From Eunapius fragilis (taxonomy: Eukaryota; Porifera; Demospongiae; Spongillida; Spongillidae), in contig OY811990.1 of the NCBI GenBank assembly GCA_963681505.1, forward strand, positions 1,547,350 to 1,611,349: a stretch of DNA of 64,000 nt. Direction: 5' to 3'. Made by a program: the position numbers and the translations under genes. The notes below the pieces were generated by a model that was given only the letters and a program-made list of their open reading frames with translations, made no database searches and was not told where the DNA came from. Shown one piece after another: positions 753 through 48,529 of the stretch. The number at the start of each line of letters is the position of its first letter. The stretch's first letter is position 1.

Positions 753-2650
753 TTCAGTACTCGTTTGGTGCCACTATTCTAAATAGTCCTCAGGACCTTG
801 ATGGTCTTAATGATAACTCCAGTGTGATAGTAGCGGGATCAGTCATCCAGCTCTTCTGTTCAGCCAGTGGACAGTTCACTGCTCCCTACATACAGTGGAC
901 CAGGAACAATATCACCATTCCAGAAACTGCACAGTTGCCTCATCTGATGGTCAAGAGTAGGACAGAGAACAACACCATCACTTCTTCAGTCCTCACTATC
1001 TATGGTTTCTCTTCAAGTGATAATGGAAGCTATCATTGTTGCGCTTCTGACATCAGTAACAGTACTTTGAGTAAACCATTACTGTTAACAGGTTAGTATC
1101 ACAGATCTGTATTATTTCAATCATCAGCTCATCCTTTACTCTGCAGCTATCAATGGCTCCAACATGTTGAAGTTAATACGAGAACTTAATATCACCACAT
1201 CAGACAGAACATATGTTCCTCTTGGAAGTTCAAATATTTCAACCAATGGATCCTTTCTGAGATGTTCAGCTGAACAGCCTTCTTCATCCTCTCTTGCTGC
1301 ACCCAGTGTGATATGGTTGAAGGATGGGACACAGCTATCTGGTGATGGGGTTAGGGTTAATGTGACAACTACCAATACCACTATGATGGGATCAAACAGG
1401 ACTCTAAGCTTTGTCCGTATCTTCAACTTCAGTCAGTCTGATGCTGGAGTGTACCAGTGTGTGTTCTATGACACACCATCCCAGGGAGGAGAGGTCATCA
1501 CCACTAGACCATACAAAGTGGACACAGGTTACAAACAGCCTAATTTACATGTAGAATATGGTAATCAATGGAAGTGTTCTTTTTTTTTTAATTCTATTAG
1601 GTCCACTCTGCTTAACTGCCCTGGTCCCCTCATCAGTTACCCTCTGTCCCCCTGAGCCCCTGGTCCTTCAAGTGGAGGCAGGGGGAGAGTATGCTGGTAT
1701 TCAATGGACCAGGACACCAATAGCTCTAAATGTCAGCAGTGATGAACTGGTAGACTTCCAGCAAATATTTGTGAGGACTGTGACATCAGAGGAGGACTGG
1801 GGACTATATTCAATAGTCTTTTCAATAAATACTTCACTGCACTTTACAAGTGTGAACATTTCTAATTGCAGTGGAGCAAACGGTAAGATGCCATGGGTGT
1901 CAGTAGTATGCCTCTTCTATAAATTCCAACCTCTCTCGATTTGACAGACCATTTCAACAACACTTTTATTTTCCCTACTTGTGTTGTAGCTATGGCAATC
2001 CCAAGTAGCCATACGTCTTCTGCCGTGGGTCACACACTGCCACCAATGTTGCCTGTATACGTTTCTGTGGCAGGAGCCACTCTCATCATGGCCGTGGGTA
2101 TCGCATCTGTGATGATTATAATTATATTCAGATGGCGCAAGAAGCAAAAAAGGTACGGGTGACCATAATTGTATATATATATATCCATGTACTGTGCTGA
2201 CCAACGCACATTCCATGTAGGATAGAAATAACTGCGTCCAAGATGTGTACGCAAAGATCAGATAGGGTTGACTCCAATGTGCTGCGCAGTGCCAACGATT
2301 GGACGCTCCCGCAACGTTCCCATGGGGATCTCAAGGCGGTGAACCTTGAGGACACTTTGGTATACGACTACAAGCGCATTGCCCCACAACCCGACCACTC
2401 CAAGCAGTATACGTTTGGTAATGGTACCAACGAAGGCAATGAAAGGTCACGTGTACCAGTCGGGGCCCACTTGAATGCCGCAGTAGGATCTCTCCCCTCT
2501 GACCACGCCTTACCAGCTGGCCGGGACATGGAGTATAGTGTCCCAAGCCATCCAATGGCGCTGAATGCGAGTTCTAACGTGCAAGACGTTGCAGCGGGTG
2601 ACTACTCATTCCTGACCTCGAATGATAACCACGACTACACGAATTTGTGA
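753..2650 (+). CDS. Ig-superfamily single-pass receptor with C-terminal ITAM (5' end missing)
   Basis: Five exons: 753-1091, 1147-1527, 1601-1882, 1990-2152, 2221-2650. Each is bounded by AG/GT. Ig exons join in phase 1, the TM-to-tail junction is phase 2, and the frame is open throughout (about 530 residues). Exon 1 encodes a full Ig fold (VIQLFC, then IQWTR, then SSDNGSYHC). Exon 2 is a second Ig fold (LRCSAE, VIWLKDG, SDAGVYQC) rich in N-glycosylation sites. Exon 3 is Ig-like, with LCPPE, IQWTR and WGLYS but no second Cys. Exon 4 has a hydrophobic helix without charged residues (about VYVSVAGATLIMAVG onward) and the stop-transfer RWRKKQKR. Exon 5 is a 142-residue cytoplasmic tail with YKRI and EYSVP motifs and a terminal ITAM. 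The architecture equals a self-contained ITAM receptor of the Fc-gamma-RIIA type. A signal peptide has not been located. Ligand unknown. The acceptor at 753 is chosen for phase; one at 758 is also possible. Confidence 0.85.
2603..2647 (+). other. ITAM in the receptor tail
   Basis: The last 16 codons before the stop read D-YSFL-TSNDNHD-YTNL. This is Yxx(L/I), seven spacer residues, Yxx(L/I), with an acidic residue before the first Tyr. It satisfies the canonical ITAM consensus (spacer 6-8). In vertebrates Src-family kinases phosphorylate both Tyr and tandem SH2 domains of Syk/ZAP-70 then bind. The function here is inferred from the motif and from its cytoplasmic side of the TM helix. Confidence 0.85.

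Positions 2651-18968: not shown

Positions 18969-48529
<29,561 letters not shown>

Follow-up and report, generated by a model that had tools for sequence, protein, structure and literature searches.

We identified a putative receptor gene on the forward strand at the left end of the window, by which we mean the whole stretch of 64,000 nucleotides that was analysed (G000:C20:1547350-1611349, in a host genome of 219 Mb in 24 contigs). Five of its exons lie inside the window, with GT/AG boundaries and matching phases by splice-site reading, and their joining is supported by sequence conservation across the copies of the gene. Exon 2 (753..1091) encodes a first Ig-like domain with a DNGSYHC hallmark and exon 3 (1147..1527) a second with the hallmark DAGVYQC, both delimited by splice sites and matched by Pfam Ig models (Ig_3, E 1e-17, over two stretches of the product). 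Exon 4 (1601..1882), placed by splice positions common to five copies, encodes a third region of Ig size that lacks the canonical cysteine hallmark; because Pfam found only two Ig stretches, its putative Ig nature is taken from size and pattern. The stalk and transmembrane helix follow in exon 5 (1990..2152, from splice sites and hydropathy), where GATLIMAVGIASVMIIIIF (2073..2129) forms the one hydrophobic helix of the product (Kyte-Doolittle mean 2.57 over 19 residues), contains no charged residue and is followed by RWRKK. Exon 6 (2221..2650) encodes the tail of 143 residues, six of them tyrosines, and carries the stop codon. About 1.8 kb upstream of the window start, at C20:1545547, lies a candidate exon that encodes MESHIIFAAVLLLTAG and ends in a GTAAGT donor whose phase matches, and conservation and phase indicate that it is probably the signal-peptide exon 1 of this receptor. 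The product is predicted to be a type I receptor with a signal peptide, Ig domains and a single transmembrane helix, an orientation that would place the tail in the cytoplasm. The original prediction of a single-chain design joining Ig domains, a transmembrane segment and an ITAM is borne out by the exon structure, the Pfam Ig domains and the one hydropathy helix.

Elsewhere in the window, a shortened relic of the family's first Ig exon (Ig1) lies in the opposite orientation (33138..33362, minus strand). Downstream of the receptor, an apparent receptor tyrosine kinase gene occupies 44264-48529 on the forward strand, with kinase exons near 44.3, 44.6, 46.5, 47.2, 47.5 and 48.1 kb and a tyrosine-bearing C-terminus; further kinase matches on the same contig, C20, include those at 720, 740 and 1624 kb. 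Long tandem repeats, which are open in several frames and are not genes, lie at 23721-25024, 27765-29205, 35336-36486 and 46534-47231, the last of which seems to sit between exons of the kinase gene.

The receptor tail ends in the ITAM YSFL-TSNDNHD-YTNL (2603..2647, forward strand), where the DNA encodes YSFLTSNDNHDYTNL and a TGA stop follows at 2648-2650; the motif YSFL-x7-YTNL directly before the stop had been predicted at exactly this position. The window copy fits the strict YxxL/I-x6-8-YxxL/I pattern with a spacing of x7, a fit that arises in 0.47% of shuffles of its tail, and we regard the ITAM as a confirmed observation that goes beyond chance. The remaining tyrosines lie, on the same strand, in Y-D-Y (2363..2371, within VYDYKRI), QYTFGN (2408..2410) and EYSVPS (2534..2536), and are the same in all five copies of the gene.

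These five copies were recovered by a tail search of the host, which matched five places, all on C20 (1421, 1465, 1507, 1543 and 1550 kb). The tails of the four paralogs (copies A to D) are 81-85% identical to that of the window copy (W), and the Ig exons of these intact paralogs are 83-96% identical to its own. All five copies have open frames from Ig1 to the stop over five exons with equal splice positions, the exception being a non-AG acceptor ahead of the transmembrane exon in copy A; near 1514 kb lies a sixth, broken copy. Upstream of W, C and D, and also of the broken copy, the signal-peptide exon can be read through. At copy A it has diverged, leaving a DNA match but no peptide, and within 9 kb of copy B no such exon was found. 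Extra signal-peptide exons occur at C20:1436664, which is 27 kb upstream of copy B, and at C20:1533747, with no matching Ig exon near. Upstream of copies W and D are stretches of ~290 bases, each matching its own reverse complement at 92-94%; weaker matches of this type occur near copies A, B and C, and the segments are possibly mobile elements. The Ig1 exon is far more widespread, with at least 35 matches in the host. At least 26 are near full length (E <1e-43; 16 on C20 and 10 on C22), and one of these contains a stop; five belong to genes with the window-type tail, and the remaining matches listed comprise five partial and four distant ones (46% identity), the latter on C10.

The paralog tails end in YSFLNSNDNFDYMNF (A), YSFLNSNDSFDYTNF (B), YSFLNSNDSLDYINF (C) and YSFLNSNDNFDYTNF (D). 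Both tyrosines, on whose presence the ITAM claim depended, are kept in 5/5 host copies together with the x7 spacing, the first YSFL and an Asn at +2 of the second tyrosine. At the +3 position of the second site, only the window copy has Leu and the other four have Phe (YSFL-x7-Y[TMI]NF), the Leu codon being one base from Phe. The description of the motif as a perfect, canonical ITAM thus suits the window copy and not the family, and the expected conservation of both +3 residues held at the first tyrosine (Leu in 5/5) and failed at the second (Leu in 1/5). Across the five aligned tails, 95/143 columns are invariant and so are all six tyrosine columns, an agreement that is weak by itself (~0.09) because 66% of the tail columns are invariant. 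In exon-wide comparisons between copies, mean dN/dS was 0.39 in the first Ig exon, 0.84 in the second and 0.49 in the third; the stalk and transmembrane exon had 0.43 and the tail 0.62. The highest value, that of the second Ig exon, is still <1, and the dN of this exon is 0.070 vs 0.072 for the tail.

A search with the whole product against 5.8 billion proteins (E <= 0.01, with the ~8000 candidates sharing most words scored) gave 16 matches, all of them models of Ephydatia muelleri, and a profile search (cut-off 1e-10, ~8000 candidates scored) returned the same 16. One of them, P0015 (Em0004g1303a), joins a family Ig1 exon to the domain PF12762, which we take to be transposase-like. NCBI assigns five of the matches (EMCRGX_G013621 to G013757) to E. 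muelleri, and the other 11 have EukProt tags running from Em0004g1255 to Em0004g1332, a numbering that suggests that the models sit close together; tags of this type are the E. muelleri style in a passage of its genome paper (PMC7385117). These matches, together with a host Syk that shares 87% identity with its E. fluviatilis counterpart and 68% with an E. muelleri model (among the matches listed), point to a freshwater-sponge relative and so establish the sponge host that had been left conditional. The receptor is described here as a predicted member of a large sponge Ig receptor family.

Hydropathy identified a transmembrane helix in 8 of the 16 E. muelleri models and none in the other 8. 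The strict ITAM occurs in two of the helix-bearing models, P0002 (YAVI-x7-YAFI) and P0003 (YEDL-x8-YETI), and is absent from the other six (P0001, P0005, P0007, P0008, P0011 and P0013), among which P0001 and P0007 have the same tail of 19 residues, which lacks tyrosine, and the tails of P0005 and P0011 are mostly alike. Six distinct tyrosine-bearing tails (window, P0002, P0003, P0005, P0008 and P0013) entered the tail test, from which P0001, P0007, P0011, the 8 helix-less models and the four host paralogs were dropped. The strict motif was present in 3/6 vs 0.020 expected from shuffles (P 7e-7) and the relaxed motif in 3/6 vs 0.21 expected (P 7.5e-4); since the window tail was picked for its motif, the fairer figure is that for 2 of the 5 others, ~1e-4. 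As a control, the first 330 residues of all 16 models, with 6-16 tyrosines, contained no strict or relaxed motif.

The ectodomains of these same six receptors are 54-85% identical in all 15 pairs, whereas none of the 15 pairs of tails aligns better than E 0.048, and the P0002 and window tails do not align. In the host, the P0002 tail had no match at E 1, and the P0003 tail matched weakly at two places on C2 (E 0.08 and 0.15), neither of them covering its ITAM. The Ig exons are bordered by phase-1 introns in the host copies, an arrangement that would make tail shuffling easy. Misjoined exons in the E. muelleri models could exaggerate the exchange of tails; the host receptor locus is contiguous. 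A structure prediction for P0002 from 12 sequences had a mean pLDDT of 36.

The host also encodes a candidate reader of paired phosphotyrosines. An SH2 search of its genome gave 70 matches, including a pair at C10:3460-3463 kb of which both domains match SYK/ZAP-70 best. Once the intron is removed, this tandem SH2 unit with its inter-SH2 linker can be aligned along its whole length, 248 residues, with human SYK (E 1.8e-45; host residues 7-254 vs human 9-255), so that the tandem-SH2 Syk called for by the original prediction is present. For the kinase exons downstream of the pair, the matches were headed by a chain of 678 residues annotated as EGF receptor, in which no individual stretch passed the cut-off; ZAP-70 and SYK came next and were best among single kinase domains. 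Syk-family proteins occur in E. fluviatilis, E. muelleri, Geodia barretti and cnidarians among the best 120 of 485 matches. A host gene with SH3, SH2 and kinase exons reads, in our interpretation, as Src-like. Other loci considered as Syk were set aside on our own reading of their exons: C9:796k reads as Src-like, C1:19.08M as a decayed Src-like copy, C4:2.1M and C1:12.29M as Fer/Fes-like and C19:5.54M as Tec-like, while the SH2 pairs on C14 and C22 read as PLC-gamma and RasGAP, respectively; a further, unassigned SH2 pair lies on C1. Two SH2 exons at C15:2460618, which are presumably Shark-like, represent a second candidate reader of ITAM-type tails. Published accounts of the origin of Syk disagree: in the sections concerned, Syk is tabulated as arising in vertebrates (PMC8662651), vertebrate-like Syk is limited among invertebrates to those with CARD-CC/Bcl10 (PMC5978004), and a tandem-SH2 Syk-family kinase of the sponge Amphimedon is used as an outgroup (PMC9601881). 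The occurrence of Syk-family proteins in sponges supports the last of these views.

We hypothesize that the window gene encodes a single-chain receptor of the ITAM type that couples to Syk and belongs to a family with interchangeable tails, a reading in which we have moderate confidence. Clustering or ligand binding of the Ig domains would lead a Src-family kinase to phosphorylate both tail tyrosines, and the doubly phosphorylated pair would recruit the host Syk via its tandem SH2 domains; we infer phosphorylation, Syk binding and activation for the window receptor. As the transmembrane helix lacks a charged residue, no separate signalling partner chain should be needed. The presence of one ectodomain type on different tails suggests that one kind of recognition is wired to different outputs. 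More broadly, it is conceivable, at somewhat less than even chances, that sponges possess a multigene receptor system whose one conserved ectodomain, of three Ig units, has been exon-shuffled onto many unrelated tyrosine tails, several of them Syk-read ITAMs.

The main rival to a Syk-coupled ITAM is a tail of endocytic or Grb2-type function. Yxx-hydrophobic motifs are known endocytic signals and Y-x-N is a Grb2-type site, and the tail could on these grounds serve docking or trafficking through YSFL, YTN[L/F] and Y-x-N, leading to internalisation or Ras and not to Syk. The Phe at the second +3 in 4/5 copies is a poor match to the ITAM consensus and suits a Yxx-hydrophobic signal; Y-x-N is kept in 5/5 copies vs Leu at that position in 1/5, and a tail with four more conserved tyrosines may well have several binding partners. 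Such a function would leave unexplained both the exact x7 spacing in five copies and the YxxI-x7-YxxI and YxxL-x8-YxxI pairs of E. muelleri, and we consider it unlikely, if the most serious of the competing explanations.

It is also conceivable that fast-changing, tyrosine-bearing tails yield ITAM-shaped pairs without function, as could be suspected from tails that do not align with one another across the family and from a window Leu that a single substitution would turn into the Phe of the other four copies. We find this improbable given shuffle frequencies of at most 0.5% per tail, the 3/6 motif-bearing tails and the 0/16 N-terminal stretches with a motif, to which the invariance of the six tyrosine columns adds its weak share. 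An inhibitory or mixed tail, read by SH2 phosphatases instead of Syk, would find precedent in the ITIM-like motifs of two E. muelleri models (SEYLVI in P0002, beside its ITAM, and SPYSYV in P0011). The first tyrosine of host copy B (C20:1464893-1465306) likewise fits the ITIM pattern, as LVYDYV, unlike the window copy, in which none of the six tail tyrosines lies in [SILV]xYxx[ILV] when read by eye, and for the window receptor this explanation is very improbable.

The Syk-coupled reading invites comparison with known systems. FcgammaRIIA and CEACAM3 are mammalian single-chain ITAM immunoreceptors, and the predicted sponge receptor resembles them in its Ig ectodomain, one transmembrane helix, same-chain ITAM and putative Syk reader. 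It differs in the Phe at the second +3 in 4/5 copies and in a family that shares its ectodomain and differs in its tails; moreover, both protein searches matched E. muelleri models only, with no match to vertebrate FcR or CEACAM among the ~8000 candidates sharing most words that were scored in each. Outside chordates, Draper/CED-1 with the Shark kinase has an ITAM-type tail, and the sponge host also has SH2 exons read as Shark; the Draper ectodomain is EGF-like and not Ig. The Alr proteins of Hydractinia vary between alleles in their ectodomain, whereas the Ig exons of the four intact sponge paralogs, which are copies and not alleles, are 83-96% identical to those of the window copy, and it is the tails that vary across the family.

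Shark has been linked with ITAM-dependent immune signals in part of the account given in PMC5978004. The treatment of ITAM receptors as classically chordate, from which the original prediction started, is outdated: a passage of a 2025 review (PMC12065747) reports ITAM and ITIM motifs on allorecognition candidates of Hydractinia, citing Huene 2022 and Rodriguez-Valbuena 2022 for the Alr motifs. On this description, the likeness to Alr lies in a non-bilaterian host and in clustered Ig-superfamily genes with ITAM/ITIM-type motifs. The same source, in its passages on Botryllus, describes a hemITAM and an ITIM on FcoR, clustered Ig type I receptors whose long tails resemble the sponge tail in bearing activating or inhibitory tyrosine motifs, and some FcoR loci exchange these motifs by splicing (PMC12065747). 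FcoR differs in belonging to a tunicate, in combining a V-type Ig, sushi and two C2-type Ig domains, and in a hemITAM that is not paired (PMC12065747). Sponge Ig-TIR receptors, as portrayed in a section of PMC6208332, are likewise transmembrane proteins with extracellular Ig domains, and differ in an intracellular TIR domain where the window receptor has a tyrosine tail. A literature search at the level of titles and abstract openings, covering few subscription journals, found no report of a sponge ITAM receptor, and neither 'immunoglobulin' nor 'Syk' occurs in the main text of the E. muelleri genome paper (PMC7385117). The sponge motif and the chordate ITAM receptors may reflect common animal ancestry or convergence, a choice that the tails leave undecided because those of family members do not align.

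A near-constant ectodomain with changing tails is, to our knowledge, the reverse of the usual pattern in immune receptor families, and it offers a natural series in which to define the minimum tail that recruits Syk (YxxL vs YxxF). If the tail-shuffling system is real, a very early animal branch would possess one recognition module with switchable activating, inhibitory and docking outputs. If the link to Syk holds, paired-tyrosine signalling by an Ig receptor would be demonstrated in sponges, on a very early branch of animals, and whether ITAM-Syk coupling is ancestral to animals or arose repeatedly would become testable.
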